NCBI RefSeq assembly: GCF_963678975.1
Contig: NC_089279.1
Location: 34,973,297 to 35,037,296 of the forward strand
Reading direction: 5' to 3'
Origin: Dysidea avara
Lineage: Eukaryota > Porifera > Demospongiae > Dictyoceratida > Dysideidae
Length of the DNA stretch: 64,000 nucleotides
Made by a program: the position numbers and the translations under genes. This document shows, one piece after another, positions 3,011-61,009 of the stretch (position 1 is the stretch's first letter; every line of letters starts with the position of its first letter). The notes beneath the pieces were generated by a model, which ran no database searches, was not told the DNA's origin, and saw only the letters and a program-made list of their open reading frames with translations.

Positions 3011-3131
3011 GTGAGGTCAAATCAGTAGCTTTATGGTGTATGATGTTACAAGTATGTACGTGCATACCCACAACAATACAGTATTAAAAAATGTGTAAAA
3101 GAAAAAAAAATTAAAGCTGCTTAATATATGT

Positions 3132-4103
3132 TCATCCAGGAACAGAAGTCTGCACTGGAGCTGGTTTGCATGTTTTAGTACAATAATGGCTATGTCACTG
3201 CTCCAGTCAGCAAGGCAAATGAAACAGAACACTTTGGCACATATTGCACATTCCATACGCTTGCAGTCTCTTGTGTGCTCAATTGGAATTCCACATTTTG
3301 GGCACAGCCTTAATGAAGGGCAGTTGGTAATTGAACCAATGGTTTTATAATCAGCTAAAGGAAGCAAGGAAAGTGGACCAGAAGATTTGCAGTTTGAGTT
3401 CCACAGTATGTGTTGCTGCTTGAATTTCTCCATGGGAGGGAGCACTGAAAGCAATACTCCGCTGGCTTGCCTGCTCTGGAACACAAGCGGCAGTACACTC
3501 TAAACTTTGTTTTATCTTGACGTTCACAATAGTTCTGGCAGCCTGGACACTCTTGAATACCTGGTTGCACATTAACAAATTTTTGAGACATCTGCTTGGC
3601 AATTTTATTAAACTCTGTATTACTAATGCCTATTAGTCGTTGAATTGTTCATTTCTCATTGCAGGATGAGCAAGTCATTGTGCTTTTTCTGTTACCAGCC
3701 ATGCTTTGACAGTTCCGCAGCATACATTCCTTGCAGTATGGAGCACGACATCTGCATGGTGAAACAAAGGTTGACCTTCCATAACATCCTACACAGTCTT
3801 GTCCACCTGGTAAGTGGACAATCAAGTGAATTGTACACTGGGGTTTAATTGCTGGATAATCTTTGATAAGTTTGCCATCGTGTATTAATTGTTCATCACC
3901 GACCACCAGTCTCTGTTCTTCAGAAGGAACACCAGTTTTGTCTTCTATTTTCTTCTTTAACCCTAACACAGTCAGCGTTTGCAGCTACAATAAGAGATTA
4001 GCATACAAACTATAACTAAGAGGCTGTGACTTACTTCTCTGTCAAGTATAGGAGTAGTGTATGTCTTATTGTTAGCAGTGGTGACAAACAAGTTAAAAGG
4101 CAT
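3132..4103 (-). pseudogene. UBL-RING1-IBR-RING2 (RBR) E3 ubiquitin ligase, broken (copy 2)
   Basis: RBR ligases pass ubiquitin through a RING2 cysteine. Exon 1 (4103..4035, MPFNLFVTT) joins exon 2 (from 3984) in phase 0 to give an N-terminal UBL (LTVLGLKKKIEDKTG). Next come a RING1 (CVGC...CRC...CKEC...CSSC), an IBR (CPGC...CRLC...CFQC) and a RING2 (CPKCG, CAIC, FCFICL). Three lesions interrupt it: an in-frame TGA at 3649-3651 where siblings encode Trp (EKW before xIQR); loss of one base around the CG-N motif at the end of the IBR (near 3404), after which the frame moves; and a second one-base shift after FCFICLADW, since the expected CKPAPVQTS tail ends at a stop at 3132 in another frame. 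Domain order resembles parkin without RING0. Otherwise well preserved, so death looks recent. Assembly error is an alternative for single bases but unlikely for three. Confidence 0.85.
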
Positions 4104-4109
4104 TTTGAT

Positions 4110-7100
4110 AAATGATGGTTTTACAATGTAGTTACTTTTATAGTGGTCACACTTGCATGACATCATTAAGAATAACATAATAAATTGATGATTGTATCAT
4201 GCATACTTGCACACATGACCTATCATTTACGTACCCACAATAATGTGTGGTTAAATCAAGATGTTGTCATGCAGGGCCTCAATCCAGAAAGTTGCAACCA
4301 TTGCATTGTGCATGGTTGTAGACACAAGATTAATTTAACAGGAGAATGGACAGAGAACTTAGCACTACTATTTATGCAAATGTACAAATCTGAGTTCTCT
4401 GTCCATGGCATAGAATCATGGCATAGAATACAGTTCCATGTGAGTGTACAGCAGCTAAAAGGCATGATTATAAGTTTAATCAGTAATAATTTGGCTTTGA
4501 TAGGCAGCAGGTGTCTAGTCTTAATTGTATAGCCATAATACCATTCTTTAGTATGTGGTCTTTTCCATGAAATAGAATAACTATAGATTAATATGTAGGT
4601 AATTTGACAAGTAGATTATTGTATGAAGTGAAGTTCTAATTGCAAATATGGCTATTAGTCATCTCCTGTGTTGGTGAACTATATTTTGATGCACATATGC
4701 AAGCACAATGTATGTGATTAAACTGTATAGTAGCTAATGCTAGTATCACATGTATCTGTATAGCTACATATAAATAAGTACAATAACTAATGCAAGAAAA
4801 GTCCTTTGAATAACAATTATAGTTATACATAGAATGATTGATAACGGTATAATATAGTAATGTGTTATCAATGTCACTGCTTGTCATAAGCAAAAACTGC
4901 ATGGAACCACAGTATGTAACAATGTTAAATAGGTTGTAGGACCAGGTGTCCTACAGACCTTCAGCACTTGTATATGGGCTGTAAGCCTTAATAAATAAAT
5001 ATATGCACTACCATATATAGGTATTAATTGTTCAAACTATATATATACACGTAGTGCTAAAGTGCTAATCCAGTTTGCTTAAAATAAACAATCTTTCTGG
5101 CTGCATAGCCTATTTGCAGGTATAGATAACAGTTGTTCAACTGTTCACATGCAGAGATGATGATGATGATGATGCTTCTTGGAAAGCAATTAACCACATT
5201 ATTATTATAGTGTAATAAATTTCACCAAATATGTAAATACACTTTAAAGCAAGCCATGTTTTCCAAGAATCCAGCCATCATTCTCTCAAGATGTTTACAA
5301 TGTATTGCACTACTTGGAATAATAATAATAATCACATGACCAATAACATTACAACTAATATGCACAACAACTTCAACTGTTTGTATGAAGGTTCCTACTA
5401 CATAATGTATAACCATACAAGCATTTTCTTGCTATAGTATACATACTACATAGCAACTGAAATGTAACAGATGTGAGAGGCATACCATACTACCAACAGT
5501 AAATAATGGTTACCATTGGTACTACTGATTGAGATAGATAATATATCAATCAAAGCAAATGCCTGCACAATGGCTATGATATCTGTTACATACCTATAAT
5601 TTTCCCGTAACATAAGATGCAAGGTCGTAATCACAGTACTCAGTGGAATTGCGAAGGCATGCAAAATTGTTCTGGATTGGTTCTTGGAATAATGAGTAGA
5701 CAGCACACCATTAACCACAAGCAACCACAAAAACATCTTAACAGTTTACTTGTCTGATAATTGTATATTGTGGTAAGAAATTTAAATAAGTACCACAATA
5801 ATTTCACTTAATGATGCAACTTTTTTATGTACATGTAATAATTTATACATGCAGCTAGAAATGTGTAAGTGCCACAACCTGAGCTGCACAACATGGCATT
5901 TTAAAAATATAGCTATATTACAATTAATTTGATAGAAGCCAAGTATAATAGTATGTAGTGCTCTGTATTCACTCCTATACTCATAACCAGCTTAATATGC
6001 TGCCTGCCCAGTATCCCAACAATGTACACAGAATGACATTGAAGAGTTAACTATAATAGTGGGGGGTTACCCTTATTAATAATAATTCAGTCTGATATAT
6101 ATTGTCATGATGTAAAGAGTGGTCAAGAAGGGAAGGCTGAAGGGAATTCTCACCAACTATGCATGGACAGTCTATTGGCATACTCCCCTAGAAAATTAAG
6201 AATATAGATCCTATATATGTATGTTTGGTAGAGCAGTGAGTGCTGCAATGATGACAGTGGTATGTAATACCTAGTGCAACCGTCATGCACATGCACCTCA
6301 TGTACATATGCAAAATCATAAAGCACAGTACATTCGAGATCACATCATGATGGAGGTTAGGTTTGCATTTTCACACAGAAAATATGGACCAGAAACCATG
6401 CAGCCCCACAATACCTTCATGGTGCAGTGCAGCCAGTATTGGTTTGGGCGGGTATGCATATATACGTATTATAAAGCCCAAAAGTGCCTTCAGTATGACC
6501 TGAAAATGCAGAATTTTCTGCTGATTGACTGCATGGCTGATACTTTCAGTATCATACTTAAGGATACAAGCTTGAGTTTGATGTCGCCTTCAGCACAACA
6601 GGTGCTAATTTTGGCATACTGCAGTACATACATTGCACACTTACCTTTGTGTCCCATTTTTTTGTGTAAGATGTCAATTTTTGTTAGCGCATTGTGGCTT
6701 TCCTGTGAATTGTCTTATTTTCTGTAGTGATTGGATTGATTGCAGAGGCACTTCTTGTTCAGTTCTTTGTACTGTGCACATGTAACAGACTGAATACAGC
6801 AGAAAACAAAGCATAATAATCACTTCACTTTTAGTATATAATTAATAGTTGGGGTGTATTCAGTTACTTTTATGACACATCTGGCACCATTCTTTCTTTT
6901 GATGCAGTATGTGCAAGCTTACCAATCATAATTATGTTCCAGAAAGTAAACAATTTTAATATATAAGCACAAGGAAAATTAAAATTTTAAGGATTACAAA
7001 AAAATAATGAAACAAGAGAAGTCATAGCAGACATTTAATCCCTGCTTCAGTCTATTAATTTGTTCCATTTAGATAAGAGATTATGGAGCTATGTAAATAA

Positions 7101-7500
7101 TATGTATGCATGTATGATTATTATCATGTTTTCTTTCTTCCTATATACCAATATTATACCCATGATGCAGCGTGCTGGCTTGGGCTACACAGCACACCAC
7201 TATGTGTAGAATTATCATCACGTAGTGTAATTGTAAATTGCAGTGGACTTGCTATACATTGTCACAGTAATTTAAAAAGTGATCAAGACTAGTGGAGATA
7301 ATGAAGTACCCTCATCCTATACCGTTGCTCTTACAACAACTTGTGCTGCAGCGTTTGGATTGCCTAACCTAATAGACAGAAACTAGTAATAAGGTGAACA
7401 GAAAATAGGCCTATAAAGAAATCCCTTCAACTTCTGACATTTCATAACTACATAGCATGTGACTTATGTGCTGTGGAAGTGAAGTATTCTTAGAGATTAA
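4110..7500. other. Gene-poor interval
   Basis: A small GAT-type microsatellite lies near 5155-5175. Several 60-140 codon frames exist (for example 6308..6727 plus, 5446..5736 minus with hydrophobic stretches), but none has a recognisable domain, a splice context or a relative elsewhere in the window, so I do not call them genes. Confidence 0.45.
4346..4406. repeat. Inverted repeat, 14-bp arms, 33-nt loop
   Basis: ATGGACAGAGAACT at 4346-4359 is repeated as its exact reverse complement at 4393-4406. Possible trace of a small fold-back element; no target duplication was found. Confidence 0.7.
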
Positions 7501-7528
7501 AAACAAAATTTTTATTCAACTGAAGAAT

Positions 7529-7562
7529 ATTCCCATGTTTGAGAGGTGGTAAACATGGGAAT
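7529..7562. repeat. Short perfect hairpin, 12-bp arms
   Basis: ATTCCCATGTTT (7529-7540) pairs with AAACATGGGAAT (7551-7562) around a 10-nt loop. It lies about 270 bp upstream of the fibrinogen-like gene. Function unknown. Confidence 0.7.
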
Positions 7563-7758
7563 TTTTAGTTTACTCTATATCTGATAACATCCTGTTATAA
7601 TGGTTATGTGCATGGCAGCTTTGTGTACATATTAAAATTATGTGTTTTTGTTGTAAAGTTAGTGTTTGAATTACTATGAACACATGAGTTGAGTGCGGGA
7701 AATCTACTATAATGTTTTTGCACTGTCCACTAAGTGAAAAACATCCTGTTAGCAAACC

Positions 7759-10147: not shown

Positions 10148-10235
10148 GTATTTAGTTGCACCATAGATACTAAATACATAATAGATTGGAAACGCAATAC
10201 ATTTTACGGTTACGGGCTCGATACGGTCACGTGAT
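10148..10235 (+). repeat. Internal inverted repeat arm of the outer element
   Basis: This roughly 85-bp arm (GTATTTAGTTGCACC ... GGTCACGTGAT) recurs inverted at 10777-10835. The copy continues at 18998-19019 after the Mutator insertion, so that element landed inside the second arm. The interrupted arm reconstructs without a gap once one copy of the 8-bp target duplication is removed. Confidence 0.8.
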
Positions 10236-10835
10236 TTATGGCAACGTTACCAAGTGTACAAACTGCAGTTGTTCTTAACACTGAGACTACTATTACAGGT
10301 TTTATAAAGCGTTAAATCATTGCTAAAGGATTCAGCTATTTATTGGTTTGTGACTGAAGGTTAGTCGTTTCGTACAACCGAAGGTGTGAAGAAAGGAACG
10401 CGAAATTTGTGTTCAAAAACTAGTGTGGGGGTTTTAGTGCATAGGGCGTATTACATACGAAGTTTTAGAAGTGCTGAACAGTTTCGCCACATCGTAATGA
10501 ATACAAAATAATTGTTTTTAGCACTGTACAGCAGTTACTTTCCGTAAGCGAAGCGAAAGAATGGCTACATGACGGTAGTGGCTGTGGGGGTTTTCCTGGC
10601 TTTGTGAAAACGAGTCTAGCGATACATGCTATACTAAAGAAAAGTTCATACCTTCGAGAGTGCTAAAAAAAGTATGAACGAATTGAACAAGCCACCTGTT
10701 TTCGAGAAAACTCTGGGCGAATTCGACAAAAATGCATTGTGCCTATTGAAAATGCTGCTGTGCCCCCGTATATGTCATCACGTGACCGTATCGAGCCCGT
10801 AACCGTAAAATGTATTGCGTTTCCAATCCATTATG

Positions 10836-10880
10836 GGCCGTCACTAAAATGCGGACTGGACTGGACTAGCGGACTGGACT
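10836..10880 (+). repeat. Left terminal inverted repeat of the MULE
   Basis: Terminal repeat followed by tandem GCGGACTGGACT sub-repeats, which could be repeated transposase-binding sites. Confidence 0.8.
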
Positions 10881-11441
10881 GGCGACCAAGTCCATTCGGG
10901 CCTGCGGACTGATCATCAGGATGACTTGATGGCTCAGAGGACTTTTCGGCTGGTTTACACGCCTGGCACAGCTATAGGAATCGGCCATTCAGGCTACTAA
11001 TCGAGATGCCTACACATCTATAGTCTTGTGTGCTACATGAATCAATTGCATGGTCTGTCATCATAGCAAGTTATTTCGGCTAGCTGTAGTCATCAAGACC
11101 CATCTGGGAAGTAAAAACCATAGATATTAAAGAATCCCAACTGCATCGGTAGCTATACTTTCAACTATGTAATAGAAAGTTCTGAAACTTTTTCAGAATG
11201 AAACCACATACATTAGAGCCTTTATGGTCCTGTAGGCTCTAATATCTATGATGGAACATGTTAGCTACGTATATGTCAGTCTTAGCTAGCTGGTTGTTTA
11301 TGTGTTCTTTTTGTCATATAACTATACATGCAATTATTATAATATAATACTGTATTTCCTTATTTGTTTAACTTGAAAAACGACAATCTTACAATGTATA
11401 AGGGAGAGTGTACTATCACAAGTCAAATAACATGGCATCCA

Positions 11442-14400
11442 CTAGAGACGGGCGCAGGTACAACAGAGGAAGTTGTCAGATATGGCTTCATTTACACATT
11501 CAGTGTGTTGCCAGCATTGGCATTGTGTACACTTGACCTGTAAGTGGTTTACACATGTACAAATTAAGAATGTGATATTACATTTGACCTACCCAATTAT
11601 CATACAAATCGGCAGACCCACACATCACACACAGGTCAGAAAGATCCACTAAAAAAACAAATATATTTGTGACTGGGCCTGCAAAAATAGGGCATGTGGA
11701 CACATGAATTTTGCCTACGTTTTCAAACTTCCAACACTCTTCATGCCACCATTCTATGGCAATGCAATTTTCAGCTCTTAGAGTAAGCATTTAATTGGCT
11801 TTATGATACAAGTTGCAGAATGAAAATATTCTGTTCCAGTACTACAATATTACTTGTTGTGTGACAGGGTGTAGTTTGTGCCCACATTCCCTGTTTTCGC
11901 AGGCCAGGTCACATTTTGACACCACAAGCGCACCATAAACTGGCTATACATGGAACACTATGAAGTGAATATATTCTAACCTGACTGTTGAAGCAACTCT
12001 ATTCCAATTTCACTACGGATCTCCTTCAAATTCAGTTTCTTTAATAAAGATTCATTGATTGTGTTGGTAAAGCATAACTGTTCTGCTAACTAGAGAAAAT
12101 ACAGGTATATAATAGTTATACCATGGCTGTGAGAGATTTTGCTGATATATACATCCAAAGCATGAAGGCCTGTGGCCCTCATGCTTTGCAAATGACCAAA
12201 CCTAAATATAAATCTTTCATTGCTTTGACTTTTATCAAGTTATAAATGTTGTTTATTTATACATTAAGTAGCAACTAGGAACTTTACTTGTTCACTTCCT
12301 ATCAATGTATTACTACATGCGTTATGCCTATACTGACCACTTTGGTGTGGGCGTTCAAAGGCACCGCTTAGGGTTTAACTCACTTATTACCTGGGTAATA
12401 TCATGCAGGAATGTGGCTTGCTCTTGGCTTTGATGCCTGCTTTGTTTACCACAAAATAATATATATCACTTATACCATGACTGCGTCAGGTAAGCACTGT
12501 TTCTTTGCAGTATGTGTAGCATGTATACCTTCAGTGAAAGAACTCCACAATTATAATCATCATATTGTATCCTGGACTTGATCTGAATTATCTTGTAATC
12601 ATCAAGGAGCAAGCTATCATCAATTCCCTTTTCTTGGCGCAAAACAAAATAATCTCTGCAGGTTATACATACACAAACATTTATAATAAAAGCCGGTGAC
12701 AATAAGCTATGGTAACACCACTTCTCACCTAAAGCTAGCAAGTGCGTTACTTGCTAAATCAGAATGTTTCAAAGGATCCAGAAAGTAAAACATCTTATTT
12801 GGTATATCAATTGCCTACATAACAAATCATGTATATCCTTATATAATATAAATCTGCGAAAACAGGGCATGCATGTGGGCACAAACTCCACCCCATATAC
12901 ACAACAGGACAGTACCGAAACACACCATTTGTATTCTGTAACGTTTACGTATCATGTAGTCTATTAAATGCTTAATTATTTGTGAACTTGCATGACTATA
13001 CGTAGCACAGTGGCATAAAAAGTTATGAGTCATGAAAGTTTGAAAAATTTGTCAAATTTTGTGTGCTCATATGCCCTGTTTCGCAGGTCTTGTCTCAAAT
13101 GACTGCTTTGTTTACCACAAATATCCAGTGCTCGAAGTGTACAACCTGATTGTACATTCCAATAAGTAAACTTTGAGAGGCAAATTTAACCTGCAATCAC
13201 TAGATTTCATTACACATGATGATCATGAAAATTATTACTTTGCAGAAGAGATTTCTTGGGACTCGATCTGTTCTGTCAATGATGGCTGTTGTGGGTTGGG
13301 ATGATATGACAAACGTGTCATGCCTTGTTTTGTTCCTAGTTTCTGCTAGGACACTTAAGAATCCATTAACAATCTATAAACATATATGAAGGTAACAGCA
13401 AACAAATAACCAGATAGATATACGTAGCTGTACTCCACTTACTTCATCATTCAGATACTGAACTCCCTTCAACGTATGGAAACTGCTTTCATGTATCTTA
13501 TATTTCCCAATGATTGCAGCAAACTTATAGCAAGGTTTTGAATTCCAAATTTTGTAAAGGCGTATCTGTGAGCACACATAAAAGTAACTTTCATAGTTTC
13601 TTTCATTATACAGTATTATATTACAGATAACAAAAAGTTTTGCCAGTTTCATGACTTCAAGGGGATTTATACATGTAATGCTTGAAAACATGAAAAGGTA
13701 TATACATGACTAGATAGTTTACTCTGGAGTCACGCATGTATTTCCTAACTGCTGTTTCCAGTCTTTTCACCATTACAAGAGACAAATAAACTAAAATACA
13801 GATCATTGATGTCAGTGCTTACTGAATACTGATTCTTGTCTTGACATCCACCACTGCTAGCATCCACAGAAAATGTTTCAGCGACTTTATTACCTAGAAA
13901 AAACTAATGGTTATATGCAGGGCACAATGCATATTATCATAGCTATAGGTATATATAGTGCAAACATTGTAAACAGAAAGGAGTACAATAGTACAAGGCA
14001 AAGCTAAGCACTGTTTCATTCCCATTAATGCAAGCAATGCAACTATTGTTAAGTGACCGTATTGTTGCTAGCATTGATCACTATGGTACACTAGTTGTAG
14101 AATTGGACATGTACTTCCAATAGAAACACTCACACTATTTTAGCTAATCACAAACTTTTGTTGACAAACATGTGTAATACTATTACAATTCTATTAGCTA
14201 ATCGCTTTCAAAATAATACAAGGTGCTATTGAGAGTATTATATTGTAACACATTCACTTGTAGGATTATAGACATGTAATAGATAGTCATGTAGCTATTT
14301 GTTACTAAAGTAATATTATATACTGTAGTTACTGGTTCTGGACAGATATTTATTTTCCAGAACAGTAAATTGAAACTTGAAGTTAATGTTGTTGGTGCAT

Positions 14401-15855
14401 ATTACAATTCGCTGAGTAGCAATTAATACTTATATATATATAGTACAATATGAACCTTCTGATTGAAGATCATCACCAGTGATCTCACACTTGCATCTTT
14501 TAGGTGAAGGGATGTCTTCAGTTACATCTATATGATATGGAATAGCACGCAGTTCTATTTTCTTTTTGTATGCCCTATAATTATGTATTACACACATGCG
14601 TGTATAATAGTAATGTATTTTATAGCACGTGTACTTTATTTAAATTGAAATGCACATACCGTGCCTAAGTACCTGATGAAATAGTTTCTTCTAATATCTT
14701 AATGCACTTTCTGTTAATACAGCACTGCTTCAATTTCCCAGGACCTCCGAACTTGACTTTATCCCTACATTCTATGCACTTTCCACAGTCTTTGGCCAGA
14801 CAACCATTGCATGACTTGCATCTCTGTCTCCTCGGTTTATTTCCTGTATTGATAATTTAAAACATGTGTAATTATCACAAAGCACCTCAAACAATATTCA
14901 ATGCATTGTTATGATATGACATAAAGAAATTATACCAAAAATCACTGTACAGTGTAAAATCAATATGCATCATCATAATGATGATTATGTGCTACAATTG
15001 CAACCCATATCATAACTATAGATTTATTCATTAATACACTATAGACTGTCACTTACTTTTAGAAGATGTACTTGCATCTGTGTTTTCTTTAACTTTCACA
15101 GCACCAGATTCTGCAATGCAAATAATTAAGGACCATGTAGTAAACTTAGAACTACCTTTAAACCAATCTCCATTTATTTTTCTCACACTTATATACATAC
15201 AGAAGCATTAATAACTACATTTAGAACATGGCATGCATAGTACGCTTTGATCTTTGATAATCAATGGGATTTCTTATATCACTAAGAAACCTCCTGGCAT
15301 AATAATTATTATTAGTAACCTCCTTGAGTAATTTATTTAAGCTCATTCACTTAACCTAGCTATGACATTTGTTTTGATTATGGGTTTCAAAAACATAATG
15401 TGGTTAAAATTAAATACTGAGCCATGTTCTACGTAAGTCAGTCAGGAACCATGCCCTTCATGATTTTAGAAACTTCAGCTTCACTATGAAGAACATTGGG
15501 CTATAGGTTCCTATCCTACTGTATATGCAGTAAGCTTCTAACCTTCTGCTGTCGACTTGTTCATTTCTTTTCTAGCCCATTTGCACAAATGATCAAAGTA
15601 ACGACTTTCCAATGGCATAGATGTGACATACACATTGCCAAACTCCCTAATCATTCTGATGGGAATCCCTTCTTGCTTCATGTATTTCAAAAGTAATGGA
15701 GTGGCAATTAGTGGAGACTTTGAATAAAATGCTGTATCCCTGAAATTATCAAAATTCCTTCGGTCTTCAGAAGTGGCTATAACATAGTCTCCATCCTGTC
15801 GTAACTCTCGCATATTGTTGAATTTTCTATACTGAAGCCATATAAATACTGCCAT
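11442..15855 (-). CDS. Transposon-borne CXXC zinc finger - Ulp1/SENP C48 protease - PHD finger protein
   Basis: Thirteen exons splice into 505 codons including the TAG at 11444-11442: 15855-15543, 15110-15057, 14843-14673, 14554-14456, 13893-13823, 13565-13443, 13373-13239, 13190-13116, 12814-12729, 12655-12529, 12089-11981, 11648-11593, 11537-11442. All introns are GT-AG and phases agree. Residues 1-104 are unrecognised. A CXXC finger (about 128-172) has eight Cys, DCGKC, KFGG and KQ, as in CpG-binding DNMT1/KDM2/MLL fingers. A C48 SUMO-protease fold (about 237-454) shows YLNDE, catalytic His in EHWIF, Asp in YFLDPL, Gln in RIQYDDYNC and Cys in NCG, then a LAEQLCF...EIRSEIG helix. A PHD finger (about 459-503) shows CVMC, CTQC, HTEC and CCTC. 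I infer a nuclear protein that reads DNA or chromatin and removes SUMO-like modifiers. The first exon might instead be joined to the transposase upstream, but no phase-compatible splice was found, so I call a separate gene starting at ATG 15855. Confidence 0.82.
11683..13095. repeat. Recurrent CCCTGTTTTCGCAG-like motif in introns of the accessory gene
   Basis: Related copies occur near 11683-11700, 11888-11903, 12855-12872 and 13072-13087 in both orientations, each next to GCATGTGG/CACATGCC-like sequence. All lie in introns of the minus-strand gene. They may be remnants of one small repeated insertion. Confidence 0.5.
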
Positions 15856-15911
15856 GTTAATGTGGATTAAAATTTCTCCTGTATCTCGCTACATGATGAA
15901 ATGCATGCGTA

Positions 15912-18640
15912 CTATAATATATAATGTATAATCAGGTTTACCTCAATGTTTTCATGGGACGTGTCCTCTCTGTAATTTGTTCGATATTTGGCTGACAAAT
16001 CATCCCATAGTCTCAGCATTTCTACATCAGGAACTGTGGAAGAAAGGATACGATACGTGCATAAATCAAAAGACTTACTTTCATTAAGTGAATTGATACC
16101 TGTGCATGCAGATGAATCTTCCATTTCATTCTCAGCCAATGGACTGCATACTTCACTGCATGTCTCAAACTCAGTCCTGTTTTCTTTGATTGGATTATCA
16201 GGCTCATCAGTGTCAATGGAAGTCGGATTTTGTGTGTCCTTAGAGGCAGCCTGTGCACTGTACAGAGAATCTGGCGCTGGGATAATTGTGCAGTCTTCTA
16301 GGTTAGGTTTCTTCCGGCCTAGCTTCTTTCCTTTCCTAGAACGTGTATTCTTTCTCAGTTGTGACAGATTGATTGTTGTAGGACTGTTTGAACAGGGTAG
16401 GTTGAGGCTTAGCTTAGCTGCAAGTATGTGATAACACTCACTTGTAGATGGACAAGTACAAGATTGTTTAGGGAACAATGTGACAGCATTAGGCTTTTCT
16501 TGACTGTTTTTCACAACAAATACTCCTAATTTTGGGTCATGGGATATTCTGTTCTCAGCAATCACCAGCTTTGCTCGGGCTAATTGACTAACTGCACCAA
16601 CCCTAGAATTACAAGCACTGGGTGTAACACTTGGTGTTTCTTGATGAATATCTGATTCTTGAGATTGAGCCCTTGCTACTATATCCTCTGGTAGAATACA
16701 GTTTGTCAATTGAACACTCTCTGGTGGCTGTGCAAAGCAGATAAAATCTGGACACAGAACATATTCTCCAGTCTGACAAAAGCCTCTTTGAATTTCATTG
16801 TAATAGAAATTCTGGAGCTGGTAAAAGCAGAGTAAAATGGTATCAACTGGAGCTTCTTTCCACTTTGTGAGACGTTTAATAACAGTGTTGAACCCTTCAC
16901 TTTGATTTGTAGTTATCCCACTGTATCTGTTGTAAACCCCAAGAGGTTCAACAATCCATCGTCCAGCACATGTGATAACATCTGGGTGAATAAATTCCAT
17001 GTAGTAGTCAAGAAACGGCTGACTCCACCGCACCTATAAAAGTAAGTATATACATGGATAGGTCAATAGAAACAATTATTTATCATGTTAAGTACCTTGA
17101 CTTCTTCCAAGCCGGTTTCATAGTCACTTAAACTGGTAGTCTGAAGTAGGCATCTAACATCTTCTTTGTATACAGGTTTCTCTACAGATGGAGTTTTGTG
17201 TTCCCTCAGCCAATGCCTAACAGCAGCAAATGTATGATTCCAGCAACGCAGACGAACCACACCTGGAAGCCACTTATCAATTGAAGAGCAGAGAGCACTT
17301 TCTTCATCAGTGACAATTGGAATTTTTCTCTTGCTTTTTGGATTTGCTAGAATTGGGCATTTGGTTGCTACATATTTCATTAATTCCTCATGAGCGGATT
17401 TCAGCTTACGTTCATGCAAAAGAAAACAAACTGGAATGACTGGGGCACCTCGAAAGAGTGTGTGGCGCATTACCAGGACAGACGCGTAGATATCACCTAG
17501 TTCAAAAGTTGTGTCATACGAGAGTAATTGTGGAGATGAAAAGTCTGTATGCATTAAGCTCTCTACTTCATCAAACATCTTGGGGTTACCACAGACAATT
17601 ATTAAATCAGGATAGGTAATAATCTTGCCCACAAATCCTGAAAGATCATACGCCATCTCATGAATGTTGTACAGCTCATCATGAGAAACTCTAAATTTTT
17701 GTCGCTCAATTGATTTATGGTTAGCTACTTGTTTAACATTGCGTGGATTTAAAACAGGATTAAGGGTGGAATGACATTTTGATGTTGATATTTTTTTCTT
17801 ATAAAATGATGACGGGCACTCTGCTTGACTGCTTGATTTAATTTCCTGGAGAACAGATGGACAAGTGCGGATGTAGTTTCTTGTGGCAGAATCAATAGCA
17901 TTTCCATGAGGATAATCTTCCACATCAGTGTCATCTCCTGTATATTGAATTAGATACCTGTCCAAGTTATCTGGTAAGTAAACTACTGTTTTCTTGAAAT
18001 TGGTCCTGGCACCAGTTGCTGTTGTGGATGAAAAATAGTATTTTTTAACTTTAGAGTTTTTCAATGGTATGTCTTTGTGGCCATACTGTCTCCATCTGTG
18101 CTGATCACATCTCCAATCTTCTATAAATAACATAGCAGTAATTTACAATGACCAACTTATCTTCAGTGACACATTCATTAAATTGCATATTCCAATTTTC
18201 AAGTCTTCGACCAATTCTTTAACACAATCAACAGTTTACCCTTCCCCACGTGATCAACGCCTGATAAATCAGCAGACTTGATCATACTCTAATAGTACAG
18301 TCACCCTAATAGACATTTAATAAGCTACTATATTCAGTATTCAGTTGAACATTCAACTAAGGCAGGCTGGCAAATGAGAGCACAGGTATACTGGGCCCTT
18401 CGCTATAGTTAGCTAACTTGAGTAAAGTCAATTTATATGACTTAAGCTCTGGGTGGATCGATATACTCTAATATAACAGTCACGCAATCAGTGCACCGCT
18501 AACTCACTTCTTCTCTTTGTGTCTAAAGCACGATACAAGAACACTTCCCCAGAGCAGGGTTTCACTGGTGGTACGGTCGATTCCACATATTTTTCATCTT
18601 GCGCTGTAAGAATGTCGTAGGGGGGCTGCTTCCCACGTTA
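15912..18640 (-). CDS. MULE transposase (WRKY-like core, DDE, SWIM)
   Basis: Exons: one ending 18508 (5' end unresolved), 18120-17096, 17033-16079 and 16033 to the stop at 15912; the last two are separated by a 45-nt intron (GTAAGT...TTCCACAG). The N terminus has DQHRWRQYGHK and KKYYF, the core of WRKY-GCM1 domains, but without the usual Cys/His zinc ligands. The MULE catalytic core shows Asp in LLSYDTTFELG, Asp in IVTDEES, a CWNH motif, and Glu in TTNQSEGFN. A SWIM finger follows (SCTCPSTSECYH), then a basic and acidic tail. About 700 residues in all. I found no stop inside, so it could be functional. No in-frame ATG is seen at the start of the first exon, so an upstream coding or leader exon is expected between about 18640 and the right terminus. 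Confidence 0.85.
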
Positions 18641-18879
18641 ATTCCTCTGCTTGGTTCAGTATGATAGGATGAGCTGTTAAGGACATTCTCGCCTAGCTAT
18701 AGCTGCAGCTGCTATCCATAGTAACGAAATTAGGCATCATGCATCGTAATTTCTCCGTGTTTCGGCCTTCCCCAGCAATGTAAGGAGAAACAATAACAAA
18801 AACTTCTAATTACAGGCTTCACAGGTTAGCCTGCCTAAATGTTAATTAAGAAATCAATGGCGATATATCAGTCGCGCTG

Positions 18880-18989
18880 TGGTTAGTCCGCAAATTAGTC
18901 ACAAGCTTCTAAAATGCGGACTGGACTCCGTGGAGTGCGCTGGAGTATTGGTCCACTGGTCCAGTCCAGTCCGCAAATTAGTGACTACC
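18880..18989. repeat. Right terminal region of the MULE with a duplicated terminus
   Basis: Before the true right end there is a second end-like sequence: TTAGTCCGCAAATTAGTCAC ending near 18901. A left-type end (AAAATGCGGACTGGACT) starts near 18912 and faces the real right end, giving a terminus-to-terminus mini-palindrome of about 80 bp. Confidence 0.6.
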
Positions 18990-19463
18990 CCATTATGTAT
19001 TTAGTATCTGGTTGCACAGCTTGTTTTCCCGCGAAGAAACAAGCGCTTCTTCCGGTAGAACACCGTCTGACTACAAGCGCTTGTAGCTGCCAGATGCAAC
19101 GCTCGTTCCTGTTTGCACTGGGGGTCACGCAACAACAAGTCACTGGTCTCTCCCACAGCAACCAAATTCGATAGGTGCAGTAAGTTAGCAACGAGCTACA
19201 AAGCACTGAACAAAGTTGGTGAGTAATGACAAGGTGGTTTTGAGGTGTGGGTACAATTTGTTTCAAGCCATATTAGTGTTGCTAATTGATTTGCACAACT
19301 AGACAAAAGCCCAAACTTGATAATTATGTTGTAAAAAGTTGTGCACTTTGGCTGCTGTCTACACATACAGTAAGATGACAAATAGCATTTTTGCACACTT
19401 TAAATCAACAATTTCTAAAACAGTTATCTGGTGGAGACTTCTTGTGCCAGAATACTGCTGCCA

Positions 19464-43944: not shown

Positions 43945-44682
43945 GTGTATGAGCATTTCAATGAGTCCGCTCATCAGTATGAGGTCGTACAAGAATACCT
44001 CAAACAGGCTCTGCCTTCTGTGTACACCCTCCAGTGCTTAATTGGTAAAGTAGATAATAATAATAATAACAAGAAGGATTGTATCATTTTCAAATTTCAG
44101 CACTTGAACTTCATGATGCTGGGAGTTATCATTGCTGGTGAAGGTGCAACAATACTGAGCAGTCTCCGCACTGTTGCTTCGGAGTGAAAAATTGTAACTT
44201 GCTACCTTTGTCACCCTTGGCTACTATTTTAATATTTTCTGGCACGGTTGAAATGTATTTCCCTCCAGCTTCTCTCAGCACAAGTTATTCTGGAATTTGT
44301 CATATCACCGCAAATCCACAACCAGAACTGCTTGCTCAGATAAATGCACAAAACTGTACCTAAGCTGTAAGCTCTGCTAATATCAGTAAATATACGTACT
44401 GCAGAAATGATGGTCACTATCCCACATGTCACAACACAATGTAAGGATGCCATTATAAGCTATCACGCCTGTCATGTAACTGAGATAATAACACTAAATG
44501 TTAGAGAAAGTAAGCCTGTAGTTCTGTAACTTATCTTAATGCCATTCCTTTACAGACATCAGTAATTCCAACACAGACTATAACAACTGAACCATCACTA
44601 ACTACTACTGCTACTACTACTACTACTACTACTACTGCTGCTACTGCTACTGCTACTACTACTACTACTACTACTACTGCTG

Positions 44683-44729
<47 letters not shown>

Positions 44730-45147
44730 GCTGCTACTGCTACTGCTACTGCTACTGCTACTGCTACTGCTACTGCTACTGCTACTGCTACTGCTACTGC
44801 TACTGCTACTGCTACTGCTACTACTGCTGCTACTGCTACTGCTACTGCTACTGCTACTGCTACTACTGCTGCTACTACTACTACTACTGCTACTACTACT
44901 GCTGCTACTGCTACTGCTACTGCTACTGCTACTGCTACTGCTACTGCTACTGCTACTGCTACTGCTGCTACTACTACTACTGCTACTGCTACTGCTACTG
45001 CTACTGCTACTGCTACTGCTACTGCTACTGCTACTGCTACTGCTACTGCTACTGCTACTGCTACTGCTACTGCTACTGCTACTGCTACTGCTACTGCTAC
45101 TGCTACTGCTACTGCTACTGCTACTGCTACTGCTACTGCTACTGCTG

Positions 45148-45194
<47 letters not shown>

Positions 45195-45249
45195 GCTGCT
45201 ACTGCTACTGCTACTGCTACTGCTACTGCTACTGCTACTGCTACTGCTG

Positions 45250-45302
<53 letters not shown>

Positions 45303-45728
45303 GCTGCTACTGCTACTGCTACTGCTACTGCTACTGCTACTGCTACTGCTACTGCTACTGCTACTGCTACTGCTACTGCTACTGCTACTGCTACTGCTAC
45401 TGCTACTGCTACTGCTACTGCTACTGCTACTGCTACTACTACTACTGCTACTGCTACTGCTACTGCTACTGCTACTGCTACTACTACTACTACTACTACT
45501 ACTACTATTACTACTACTAATTATACAGGAACTACCACTTCTACTACAGGACATACACTAATGTTCCACCGAAGCCAACAGCATTTATTACTGATTTAGT
45601 CTGATTACACACTAACCAACGGTTCTAATGGAGGTGATAAAGAGAGTGCAGCAGGCAGTACTAGAAGCACCATTCTTGTGAAGTTGGCCTTCATTGCAAT
45701 ATTACTGATATACTTCAGCAATTGTTGA
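43945..45728 (+). pseudogene. Ig-like surface protein with huge Thr/Ala mucin-type stalk, broken
   Basis: Plus-strand relative of the Ig gene at 40041. Ig1 fragments: VYEHFNESAHQYEVVQE, then LELHDAGSYHCW, a TGA at 44139-44141, and RCNNTEQSPHCCF. Ig2: MYFPPASLSTSYSGICHIT...PQPELLAQINAQNCT, a TAA, a frame change, then TTQCKDAIISYHACHVTE and TLNVRE at a donor-like AGTAAGC. The next segment reads PTQTITTEPSLTTTA into a stalk of about 300 Thr/Ala codons made of ACT/GCT triplets (44606-45520), then NYTGTTTSTTGHT. A separate downstream frame gives GGDKESAAGSTRSTILVKLA and FIAILLIYFSNC before a stop at 45728, a membrane or GPI-type tail. Stops in both Ig exons mark it as dead. The stalk would have been O-glycosylated. 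Confidence 0.7.
44606..45520 (+). repeat. 0.9-kb (ACT/GCT)n trinucleotide array
   Basis: Blocks of pure ACT alternate with longer blocks of ACTGCT, so there is a higher pattern of homogenised segments. The plus-strand reading is Thr/Ala and continuous with coding flanks; the 318-codon all-Ser frame on the minus strand is an artefact. Confidence 0.95.
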
Positions 45729-51711: not shown

Positions 51712-52948
51712 TGGTGTAGCTGAACTCTCTACATGATGGTTTCTTTATAGCTGAACTCTCTACAAGGTAACTTCTTCTAGCTGATCTCTCAACAGGGAGA
51801 TTTCTTTGTAGCTGAACTCTCTACAGGTGATTTGTTTGCAGCTGAACTCTCCACATGATGGTTTCTTTGTAGCTGAACTCTCTACAAGTTAACTTCTTCT
51901 AGCTGATCTCTCTACAGGGAGATTTGTTTGTAGCTGAACTCTCTACAAGGTATCTTCTTCTAGTTGATATTTCTACAGGGTGATTTGTTTGTAGCTGAAC
52001 TCTCTACAAGGTAAGCTGATCTCTCTACATGGAGATTTGTTTGTAGCTGAACTCTCTACAGGTGATTTACTTGAAGCTGAACTCTCTAAATGATGGTTTC
52101 TTTGTAGCTGAACTCTCTACAAGTTAACGTTTTCTAGCTGATCTCTCTACAGGGTGATTTGTTTGTAGCTGAACTATCTAAAGGTGATTTGCTTGAAGCT
52201 GAACTCTCTAAATGATGGTTTCTTTGTAGCTGAACTCTCTACAAGATAACTTCTTCTAGCTGATCTCTCCACAGGGAGATTTGTTTGTAGCTGAATTCTG
52301 TACAGGTGATTTGTTTGCAGCTAAACTCTTTACAGAATGGTTTCTTTGTAGCTGAGCTCTCTACAAGGTAACTTCTTCTAGTTGATGTCTCTACAGGGTC
52401 ACTAGTTTGTAGCTGAATTCTCTACATGGTGGTTTCTTTGTAACTGAACTCTCTACAAGGTGGCTTCTTCTAGCTGATCTTTCTACAGGGTGATTTGTTT
52501 GAAGCTGAACTCTCTACAAGGAAACTTCTTCTAGCTGATCTCTCTACAGGGAGATTTGTTTGTAGCTGAACTCTCTACAGGTGATTTGTTTGCAGCTGAA
52601 CTCTCTACATGATGGTTTCTTTGTAGCTGAACTCTCTACAAGGTAACTTCTTCTAGTTGATCTCTCTACAGGGAGATTTGTTTGTAGCTGAACTCTCTAC
52701 ATGATGGTTTCTTTGTAGCTGAACTCTCTACAAGGTAACTTCTTCTGTTGATCTCTCTACAGGGCGATTTATTTGTAGCTGAACTCTCTACACGGTGGTT
52801 TCTTTGTAGCTGAACTCTCTACAAAGTGAGCTGAACTCTCTACAAAGTGACTTCTTCTAGCTAATCTATCTACAGGATGACTTGTTTCTAACCGAACTCT
52901 CTACAGTGTGATCTGTTCATAGTGGAACTTTCTACTGGGTGATTTGTT
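51712..52948 (+). repeat. 31-bp satellite array with four-monomer higher-order order (part 1)
   Basis: Monomers of 30-33 bp start GCTGAACTCTCTACA or GCTGATCTCTCTACA. Four types recur in sequence: ATGATGGTTTCTTTGTA, AGGTAACTTCTTCTA, GGGAGATTTGTTTGTA and GGTGATTTGTTTGCA, giving a period of about 122 bp with occasional skipped monomers. Confidence 0.92.
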
Positions 52949-52956
52949 TGCAGCTA

Positions 52957-55494: not shown

Positions 55495-55885
55495 AACTCT
55501 TTGCATGATTGTTTCTTTGTAGCTAACTGAACTCTCTACAAGGTGACTTCTTTTAGCTGATCTCTCTACAGGATGACTTGTTTCTAACTGAACTCTCTAC
55601 AGTGTGATCTGTTCATAGCAGAACTTTCTACTGGGTGATTTATTTGCAGCTAAACTCTTTGCATGATTGTTTCTTTGTAACTGAACTCTCTACAAGGTAA
55701 CTTCTTCTAGCTGATCTCTCTACAGGGCAATTTGTTTGTAGCTGAATTCTCTACAGGGTGATTTATTTGAGCTGAACTCTCTACATGATGGCTTCTTTGT
55801 AGCTGAACTCCCTATTAGGTACCTTCTTCTAGCTGATCTGACTACAGGGTGACTTGTTTGTAGCTGAATTCCCTACAGAATAACT
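55495..55885 (+). repeat. 31-bp satellite array (part 2, beyond the hAT insertion)
   Basis: Continues with the same monomers directly after the target duplication, confirming that the hAT element split one array. Confidence 0.9.
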
Positions 55886-59428: not shown

Positions 59429-61009
59429 AATACTCATAGACATTCACAACATTGGAGACAATCACTAATGCCACCTCAGCAAAGGAGTGATTGTTAAAAG
59501 CTGCTAATGATGATGTACGTAGTTGTGCAATTGTTTTATCGTGCTCTTATACAGTGTGTCTATAGGTGATGAGTGCTGTAGCCAAACACTTCATGGCATT
59601 ATCAACTAATGAGGTGTGTTGTGTTGTGTAATGTGTTGTGTTGTGTAATATGTTGTGTAGTGTAATGTGTTGTATAGTGTGTTGTGTAATGTGTTGTGTT
59701 GTGTAATGTAATGTGTTGTGTAGTGTGTTGTGTAATGTGTTGTGTTGTGTTGTGTAATGTGTTGTGTAGTGTAGTGTGCTGTGTTGTGTAGTGTGTTGTG
59801 TAATGTGCTGTGTAATGTGTTGTGTAGTGTGTAGTGTAATGTGTTGTGTAGTGTGTTGTGTAATGTGTTGTGCAGTGTGTTGTGTAATATGTTGTGTAGT
59901 GTGTTGTGTAATGTGTTGTGTAGTGCGTTGTGTAATGTGTTGTGCAGTGTGTTGTGTAATATGTTGTGTAGTGTAATGTGTAGTGTAGTGTGTTGGGTAG
60001 TGTGTTGTGTAATGTGTTGTGTAGTGTGTTGTGTAATGTGTTGTGTTGTGTAATGTGTTGTGTTGTGTAGTGTGCTGTGTTGTGTAGTGTGTTGTGTAAT
60101 GTGCTGTGTAGTGTGTTGTGTAATGTGTAGTGTGTTGTGTAATGTGTTGTGCAGTGTGTTGTGTAATGTGTTGTGTAGTGTGTTGTGTAGTGTAATGTGT
60201 TGTGTAATGTGTTGTGTAGTGTGTTGTGTAATGTGTAGTGTAATGTGTAGTGTAATATGTTGTGTAGTGTGTTGTGCAGTGTGTTGTGTAATGTGTTGTG
60301 TAGTGTGTTGTGTAATGTGTAGTGTAATGTGTTGTGTAGTGTGTTGTGTAATGTGTTGTGTAATGTGTAGTGTAATGTGTTGTGTAATGTGTAGTGTAAT
60401 GTGTTGTGTAATATGTTGTGTAATGTGTTGTGCAGTGTGTTGTGTAGTGTGTTGTGTAATGTGTAGTGTAATGTGTTGTGTAGTGTGTTGTGTAATGTGT
60501 TGTGTAGTGTGTTGTGTAATGTGTAGTGTAATGTGTAGTGTAATATGTTGTGTAGTGTGTTGTGCAGTGTGTTGTGTAATGTGTTGTGTAGTGTGTTGTG
60601 TAATGTGTAGTGTAATGTGTTGTGTAGTGTGTTGTGTAATGTGTTGTGTAATGTGTAGTGTAATGTGTTGTGTAGTGTGTTGTGTAATGTGTTGTGTAAT
60701 GTGTAGTGTAATGTGTTGTGTAATGTGTTGTGTTGTGTAGTGTGTTGTGTAGTGTGTTGTATAGTGTGTTGTGTAATGTGTCGCTGCTTTGCTTATGCTT
60801 TTGTGTATCTAATTACTACAATTTTGTGGTGTTCAGGAGCTCATAAGTGCCACAAGGCATTTCATGCCTTCAGTGCTTATAAACTTCTGTTTTTATACTT
60901 GTTAACAGCACACAGATGTTATTACATACGTTATGTGTTTGTTGATGTTATAGGATAAAGTGACAAAGTTTGGAATTGCCAAGGAAAATATGTTTGAATT
61001 TTGGGATAT
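59429..61009 (+). pseudogene. GPI: Glucose-6-phosphate isomerase fragment, broken
   Basis: GPI interconverts glucose-6-phosphate and fructose-6-phosphate in glycolysis. Three consecutive exons are visible. 59429-59514: TFTTLETITNATSAKE, then LLKAANDD. 59566-59613: VMSAVAKHFMALSTNE. 60954-61009: DKVTKFGIAKENMFEFWD. They match the conserved central stretch of animal GPI (TFTTxETxTNA, SAVAKHFxALSTN, VxxFGIxxxNMFEFWDW). Two nonsense codons are present: TAG at 59437-59439 where SKTFTT expects Lys, and TGA at 59488-59490 where AKEW expects Trp. No upstream or downstream GPI exon is found within reach, so it is an isolated dead fragment. It kept introns, so it is a DNA-level duplication. The intron between the second and third exons holds a 1.2-kb simple array. 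Confidence 0.85.
59611..60781 (+). repeat. 1.17-kb (TGTTGTGTAATG/TGTTGTGTAGTG)n array
   Basis: 12-bp-type units with A/G alternation and shorter variants. It starts exactly at the exon donor (GAG|GTGTGTTG), so it likely grew from the intron's own GTGTGTTGTG start. Cys/Val-rich frames over it are artefacts. Confidence 0.95.

Follow-up and report, generated by a model that had tools for sequence, protein, structure and literature searches.

The 64,000-nt stretch of the Dysidea avara genome analysed here (NC_089279.1, positions 34,973,297–35,037,296, hereafter the window) contains a whole Mutator-like element (MULE) of 8154 bp on the minus strand, at window positions 10836–18989, whose gene is predicted to encode a transposase with CXXC, Ulp1-type protease and PHD-type domains. 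An inverted-repeat search located two arms at 10835–10874 and 18951–18990, with 8076 nt between them, and comparison with other copies fixed the termini as GGTAGTCACTAA...TTAGTGACGGCC. The terminal inverted repeat (TIR) of the 5′ end, which begins with GGTAGTCACTAA, lies at 18951–18989 (minus strand) and that of the 3′ end at 10836–10874 (plus strand); the arms are 85% complementary over 40 nt, and the same 5′ end is present in copies on C2 and C5 (C2, C4, C5, C7, C9, C10, C11, C12, C14, C15 and C73 are contigs of the host genome, and L numbers denote individual loci examined). The copy comparison also identified an 8-bp target-site duplication, CCATTATG on the plus strand, at 10828–10835 (left copy) and 18990–18997 (right copy). 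At identical termini the duplication is an exact 9 bp on C2 and 8 bp on C5, and none was seen at the termini of a decayed copy on C10. The ∼40-nt TIRs, the 8–9 bp duplications and a transposase with DDE motifs and accessory WRKY and SWIM zinc fingers identify a MULE, as had been proposed in the initial annotation of this DNA; the Gypsy-type integrase core and 4-bp duplication of Ginger1 were not found in the window element. A second near-complete copy, 97% identical and split by ∼28 kb of foreign sequence, is located on C2, internally deleted derivatives are present on C5 and C10, and other fragments occur on C4, C5, C7, C9 and C15. The left end of the element abuts a 59-nt inverted repeat (98%, 541 nt between arms) at 10177–10835, the end of which coincides with the target duplication.

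The initial annotation had described a gene of thirteen GT-AG exons and 505 codons at 11442–15855 on the minus strand. Splicing in silico reproduced the thirteen exons, their agreeing phases and the open frame, but gave 495 codons plus a stop from the ATG at 15855, with the exon that follows the CXXC exon starting at 14527; an acceptor at 14574 was rejected for this exon as it breaks the phase. The limits of the gene also had to be revised, and our model comprises 15 exons running from 18133 to 11442, with 1216 codons plus a stop, GT-AG at all junctions and agreement of all phases. The gene at 11442–15855 is most likely the 3′ portion of a larger, real transposase gene, and the start most likely lies within the transposase, because the sequence upstream of the ATG at 15855 and the phase-0 intron that precedes it are conserved in two relatives (C11 and L060), on which ground this ATG was rejected as the true start. 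An additional exon may be present upstream of exon 1.

Exon 1 (17096–18133) encodes a WRKY-type zinc domain and the first part of the DDE (MULE) transposase (52% identity to L060 over residues 2–347), and exon 2 (15942–17033) encodes the remaining transposase and a SWIM zinc finger, CTCPSTSECYH (55% identity to L060 over residues 344–611). A conserved domain of unknown kind is encoded by exon 3 (15543–15888; 64% identity to C11 and 55% to L060), followed by a linker in exon 4 (15057–15110; assigned from splice sites and phase, and kept in C2) and the CXXC zinc finger in exon 5 (14673–14843; domain at 14704–14838, Pfam zf-CXXC 2e-12). Exons 6 (14456–14527; placed by phase, with weak similarity to C11, E 0.098) and 7 (13823–13893; splice sites and phase, kept in C2) encode further linkers. 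The Ulp1/C48 domain starts in exon 8 (13443–13565; ..YLNDE), which was defined by splicing, the match to SENP2 and comparison with L054, and continues through exon 9 (13239–13373; splicing and SENP2 match), exon 10 (13116–13190), exon 11 (12729–12814) and exon 12 (12529–12655; Pfam C48 at residues 1054–1159, conserved in L054). The putative catalytic His (HW, codon ∼13130–13128) of exon 10 and Asp (YFLDPL, codon ∼12778–12776), both positions hand-counted, align with SENP2 residues, and exon 12 supplies the Gln and the putative catalytic Cys (QYDDYNCG, Cys codon ∼12549–12547). Exon 13 (11981–12089) contains the C-terminal part of the protease and a linker common to the L054 element, as judged by comparison of the two. 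The first half of the PHD finger is in exon 14 (11593–11648; splicing and Pfam PHD match of the C-terminal piece) and the second half, with the stop codon, in exon 15 (11442–11537). The introns contain two oppositely oriented copies of a ∼250 bp dispersed repeat with many genome copies (11661–11914 and 12854–13100).

The predicted product is composed, in order, of the WRKY-type zinc domain, the MULE transposase, SWIM, a conserved domain without Pfam match, CXXC, Ulp1/C48 and PHD. When the full product was searched against Pfam, zf-CXXC (6e-10) and Peptidase_C48 (5e-6) scored above their cut-offs, which bears out the CXXC domain and the C48 residue set that had been read from the sequence; the active-site residues H, D, Q and C are also recognizable by eye in this order, and the protease half matched SENP2 in the PDB (E 2e-4). 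WRKY was above the cut-off on the open reading frame (ORF) of exon 1 (1e-4) and just below it on the full product (20.6 versus 21 bits). The catalytic D, D (with C-x2-H) and E motifs of the transposase are visible by eye, as is the CxC..CxH motif of SWIM, and two relatives of the window transposase clear the PF10551 cut-off (C7:10443767, 43% identity, and C4:42283888, 44%). The PHD finger proposed earlier stands in part: its C4HC3 ligands can be seen by eye and three solved PHD chains in the PDB were matched with E values of 0.016–0.018, but the Pfam match (4e-4, 20.7 bits versus a cut-off of 24) was obtained on the C-terminal piece only, and a search of the full product at E≤1 gave none. In L054, the homologous tail clears the PHD cut-off (8e-6, 26.2 bits). 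A Pfam search at E≤1 gave no match for the exon 3 domain, and a single-sequence AlphaFold prediction of this exon alone had a mean predicted local distance difference test (pLDDT) score of 50, so the model was unusable. In the Pfam search at E≤1 the window protein lacked a match to the integrase family rve, and PF21056 and PF15299 were absent among the Pfam matches of its transposase, which matches WRKY.

The eight cysteines, KFGG and KQ have recognized roles in the CpG-binding class of zf-CXXC domains, and inspection by eye found all eight zinc-binding cysteines and both motifs in the window domain. The window as a whole is depleted in CpG (observed/expected 0.33; TpG 1.43), and CpG depletion usually reflects germline CpG methylation. 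Within the element, the first 150 bp contain 8 CpG (observed/expected 0.96) and the last 150 bp contain 9 (0.76); on the 5′ side the ratio stays at 0.69–0.73 as far as 600 bp inward, and in the bins between the ends it is 0.28–0.42. Each end of the C2 copy contains 8 CpG. Such CpG-rich ends would suit a protein that binds its own element's ends when these are unmethylated. We consider it unlikely, though conceivable, that the CXXC serves mainly in zinc-finger contacts with the element's own ends or with proteins, and not as a CpG methylation reader. Element ends are bound by zinc fingers in other transposases, and a CXXC domain that lacks KFGG is not known to bind CpG; the window domain, however, has KFGG and KQ, and among eight transposon CXXC domains compared by eye (the window, C11, L057, L058 and L060–L063) (F/Y)GG is present in 8/8 and KQ in 6/8, with L060 and L062 as the exceptions. 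With ends that are rich in CpG, end binding and CpG reading can both be true.

Whether the CXXC, protease and PHD domains belong to the transposase itself was judged from two relatives. L060 is colinear with the window over the two transposase exons (52% and 55% identity), the transposase end (52%), the exon-3 domain (55%) and the CXXC (44%). C11 carries an old relative of the window gene, with 74% identity at the transposase end, 64% in the exon-3 domain and 82% in the CXXC, and with Ulp1 motifs and PHD-like cysteines recognizable by eye. In all three loci a short intron begins after GAG, in the same phase, behind the conserved transposase end, and the part of exon 3 upstream of the ATG at 15855 includes EILIHIN (window), EILIHVN (C11) or EILIFVN (L060). 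It is improbable that there are instead two genes, a transposase ending after SWIM and a separate CXXC-Ulp1-PHD gene comparable to the extra genes of some MULEs: the ATG at 15855 does open a frame extending across the tail exons, but the conservation extends upstream of it, the short intron keeps its phase, and exons 2 and 3 are only 53 bp apart. The three domains, which had been placed next to a MULE transposase, are present, the PHD with a Pfam score below the cut-off, and from these alignments they appear to belong to the polypeptide of the transposase itself. The C11 locus also has an integrase-type frame alongside the old relative and on the same strand (L030+L031, joined ∼12956–14918), as well as a cysteine-rich stretch at ∼12574–12936. 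The integrase frame was considered as a possible Ginger element with CXXC and rejected; because the locus keeps a MULE transposase end, the sequence makes a neighboring or nested insertion more likely.

Comparison of the window element with its copies indicates that both halves of the protein are under purifying selection. Between the window and C2, 50 of 3651 exon bases differ, compared with 124 of 4434 non-exon bases, so exons are about half as diverged as non-exon sequence, and all splice sites of the model are kept in C2 (14/14 donors and 14/14 acceptors). For the transposase, the synonymous (dS) and non-synonymous (dN) divergences are 0.038 and 0.006 (dN/dS ∼0.16), and for the rest of the protein they are 0.044 and 0.0075 (dN/dS ∼0.17); codon pairs containing a stop, one in C2 and two in C10, were omitted from the counts. 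The C10 copy, of which only the transposase was compared, is decayed, with deletions, two stops, dS of 0.10 and dN of 0.045. Judged from these comparisons, this is a real transposon gene under selection, in agreement with the earlier view that its exon chain is more than chance.

The profile searches covered the host genome (550.8 Mb, 108 contigs), and candidates were scored for CXXC (PF02008; best 150 of 193, all matched), MULE (best 150 of 410, all matched), OTU (best 150 of 230, 148 matched) and C48 (150 of 277, 76 matched). Element counts from these tables are lower bounds, and the share of linked CXXC matches holds for the 150 scored. In 32 of the 150 CXXC matches, a Pfam MULE match is located on the same strand with the CXXC ≤6 kb downstream of it, one pair is reversed and none is on opposite strands, whereas random placings, which used approximate lengths for C14, C15 and C73, gave a mean of 0.14. 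In 65, an OTU match follows within 3 kb on the same strand (mean of 0.12 in random placings with the same lengths), and in none is one found upstream or on the opposite strand. Pfam C48 follows within 3 kb in three, and no match has both OTU and C48; C48 is undercounted, because the Pfam genome search misses the window's own C48 exons. In total, 94 of the 150 CXXC matches are linked to transposon domains, by a MULE ≤10 kb upstream (37), by OTU (65, 14 of them also with MULE) or by C48 (3), or as the window, C2 and C11 loci. MULE, CXXC and OTU occur in a row at at least 14 loci, six of which have spacings of 2415–2565 and 1241–1356 bp, near-constant values as expected for copies that move as one unit. 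Two of the CXXC matches that are unlinked in this count belong to a single 394-residue frame, L001 (G000:C3:17370303–17370707), in which a PHD-like stretch is also present; we take this frame to be CFP1-like, and it is probably a host gene.

Inspection by eye showed MULE, SWIM, CXXC and Ulp1-type motifs in L057 (C2) and L058 (C12), the same with one Ulp1-like motif in L061 (C10), and MULE, SWIM, CXXC and OTU in L062 (C11) and L063 (C12); L059 (C5) has CXXC and Ulp1-type motifs with no recognizable transposase in the stretch examined. Pfam backs MULE and/or ZSWIM1-3 RNaseH in L057, L061, L062 and L063, CXXC in L057, L058, L062 and L063, C48 in L057, and OTU in L062 and L063; the C48 of L058 is supported by the genome match C12:6338399, and SWIM in all five MULE-bearing loci (L057, L058 and L061–L063) and the Ulp1-like motif of L061 were assigned by eye only. 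No inverted ends of ≥24 nt bounding an element were found in L057, L058 or L061–L063, which had been cut at 7.5–8.4 kb. By these matches, the layout recurs as a class of MULE-CXXC-protease loci and is not a single case. In the reverse complement of L061, a 371-residue frame at 6510–7622, beside the MULE, resembles a non-LTR reverse transcriptase by eye, and a similar piece is found at L055:909–1289.

It is very unlikely that the CXXC and the domains behind it are passenger host sequence captured in the manner of Pack-MULEs, with no role for the element. MULEs tend to acquire fragments of host genes, as described in the available text of Dupeyron et al. 2019 (PMC6446971), and internally deleted derivatives do exist on C5 and C10. 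However, between the window and C2 the tail and the transposase have similarly low dN/dS, so the Pack-MULE hallmark of a captured piece that is not under selection with the transposase was not found; the transposase-CXXC order is kept in L060; and there are many MULE loci with CXXC, and many CXXC with OTU behind them. A chance exon chain, or a dead relic without coding meaning, is hardly credible, for although some Pfam scores are weak, the CXXC and C48 E-values, the conserved splice sites, the dN/dS values and the homologues at other loci all speak against it.

The tail of the window protein is not confined to MULEs. L054 encodes a Gypsy-type integrase core (rve 3e-12) followed by an Ulp1-PHD tail that is broken by one stop codon, and L055 and L056 are near-identical to it by eye. 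Pieces of the L054 tail share 39% identity with the window tail over 133 residues and 35% over 130, the interval between protease and PHD included, while short Ulp1 fragments from other MULE families gave no match to the window tail, which is weak evidence. Because the tail of an integrase element matches that of the window and the Ulp1 pieces of other MULEs do not, the comparison points to exchange of the tail between MULE and Ginger-like integrase superfamilies.

Transposases with such tails have been described. According to the portion of Bao et al. 2010 (PMC2836005) that we could access, Ginger1 elements have C-terminal Ulp1, Ulp1-PHD or OTU tails, never Ulp1 and OTU together, for which a role in transposition is suggested; Ginger1-9_HM is listed with Ulp1 and PHD, and the legend of Figure 1e refers to an alignment in which Ginger1 and Mutator transposases are compared over their Ulp1 and PHD domains. 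The window element shares with Ginger1 the module of a transposase with C-terminal Ulp1-PHD, which does not make it a Ginger1: by the same partial text Ginger1 has a Gypsy-type integrase and 4-bp duplications, whereas the window element has a MULE-type transposase and duplications of 8–9 bp. The accessible text of PMC2836005 also cites Ulp1 in Mutators of hydra, lancelet and plants, in line with the earlier remark on Ulp1-like proteases in plant MULEs; these combine a MULE transposase with Ulp1 as the window element does, but, as far as that citation of them goes, with no CXXC mentioned, and the main text of PMC2836005 does not use the word CXXC. In the main text of PMC6446971, FLYWCH, SWIM, RING and C2H2 fingers, and PHD fingers in Rehavkus, are described, with CXXC and Ulp1 absent, and neither is found in the available text of PMC10027918. 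The earlier suggestion that the combination is undescribed therefore falls for Ulp1 with PHD on transposases, which the accessible part of PMC2836005 reports, and holds for CXXC within the literature searched. Among open-licence papers, to which the search was limited, we found no description of CXXC in a MULE, which is not proof of novelty. What appears to be new, on the present comparisons, is the addition of CXXC with Ulp1 or OTU behind it at many loci; transposases tailed with Ulp1 or OTU were already known. Two further families are similar in part: ZSWIM1-3-like (PF21056) matches the transposase parts of other CXXC-bearing MULEs (L057, L061, L062 and L063) and ALS2CR8-like (PF15299) that of L062, whereas the window transposase matches WRKY and neither of these families. 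A possible functional parallel is provided by VANC of Arabidopsis, the element of which is a MULE (VANDAL). In the portion of PMC5735166 available to us, VANC is a transposon-encoded protein that counteracts silencing, but it causes loss of DNA methylation.

Our preferred reading, in which we have about even confidence, is that the gene encodes a Mutator-like transposase with a C-terminal accessory half, composed of a domain of unknown fold, CXXC, an Ulp1-type isopeptidase and PHD, that acts on unmethylated CpG chromatin. The CXXC would hold the transposase on unmethylated CpG-rich DNA, at the CpG-rich ends of the element, at open host promoters, or at both; the PHD would read the local histone state; and the Ulp1 domain would take SUMO off proteins of chromatin or of repair, which would lift silencing or allow excision and insertion to go ahead. 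Relatives with OTU would play the same role with ubiquitin instead of SUMO. The observation of the initial annotation is partly confirmed, and its interpretation is partly supported, for the MULE assignment and the added domains; targeting of CpG-rich or methylation-free chromatin and removal of SUMO-dependent silencing are inferred. A wider proposal is tentative and, in our view, rather doubtful: in a genome that is CpG-depleted and presumably heavily methylated, a class of MULEs with CXXC-reading transposases and an exchangeable SUMO or ubiquitin protease could form self-contained anti-silencing or targeting machines, which would keep their own CpG-rich ends in use or find unmethylated promoters and strip silencing modifiers, with protease modules traded between MULE and Ginger-like elements.

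Several observations weigh against the preferred reading. In the window protein, MULE (E 0.0056–0.014; 16.2 versus 27.6 bits on the full product), SWIM (0.034 on a separate ORF) and PHD all score under the Pfam cut-offs. The C2 copy has one in-frame stop, one-base and nine-base exon insertions and the large insertion, and dN/dS is not clearly low in the C5 derivative (3 synonymous and 5 non-synonymous differences, dS 0.020, dN 0.0085), a comparison confined to 746 exon bases of protease and PHD, with too few differences to judge. No Ulp1 was recognized in the ∼5 kb after the L060 CXXC, where the protease may be lost, unrecognized or further away. In the Pfam-based count, 56 of the 150 CXXC matches are unlinked to a transposon domain, although these include L060, which is truly linked but was missed by the Pfam MULE search. 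As for the ends, ≥8 CpG are also reached in 10 of the 371 150-bp tiles that lie outside the element, and shared CpGs (16/20 at the ends versus 80/109 inside) do not indicate that the ends are clearly better kept. The CpG-rich ends could simply reflect a promoter, which if rich in CpG would give the same picture at the 5′ end.

Little is understood of how cut-and-paste transposons persist in methylated genomes, and a transposase that combines a methylation-state reader with a SUMO or ubiquitin protease would offer a directly testable answer. The occurrence of Ulp1-PHD, Ulp1 or OTU behind CXXC in one genome would constitute a natural experiment that could show which of the modifications matters. 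The Ulp1-PHD tail common to MULE and Ginger-like elements suggests movement of accessory modules across superfamilies. In addition, transposons may account for many of the CXXC- or OTU-like genes predicted in such a genome.

Elsewhere in the window, a frame at 3017–3499 on the minus strand has an IBR/RING ligase-like cysteine pattern (CPKCGIPIEHTRDCKRMECAICAKVFCFIC), a label given by eye only. A 918-bp (ACTGCT)n repeat at 44601–45518 is open in several frames on both strands. The minisatellites at 51715–52955 and 55523–55878 share the core unit AGCTGAACTCTCTACA, and a 12-bp tandem repeat, TGTGTTGTGTAA, is present in ∼96 copies at 59620–60781.

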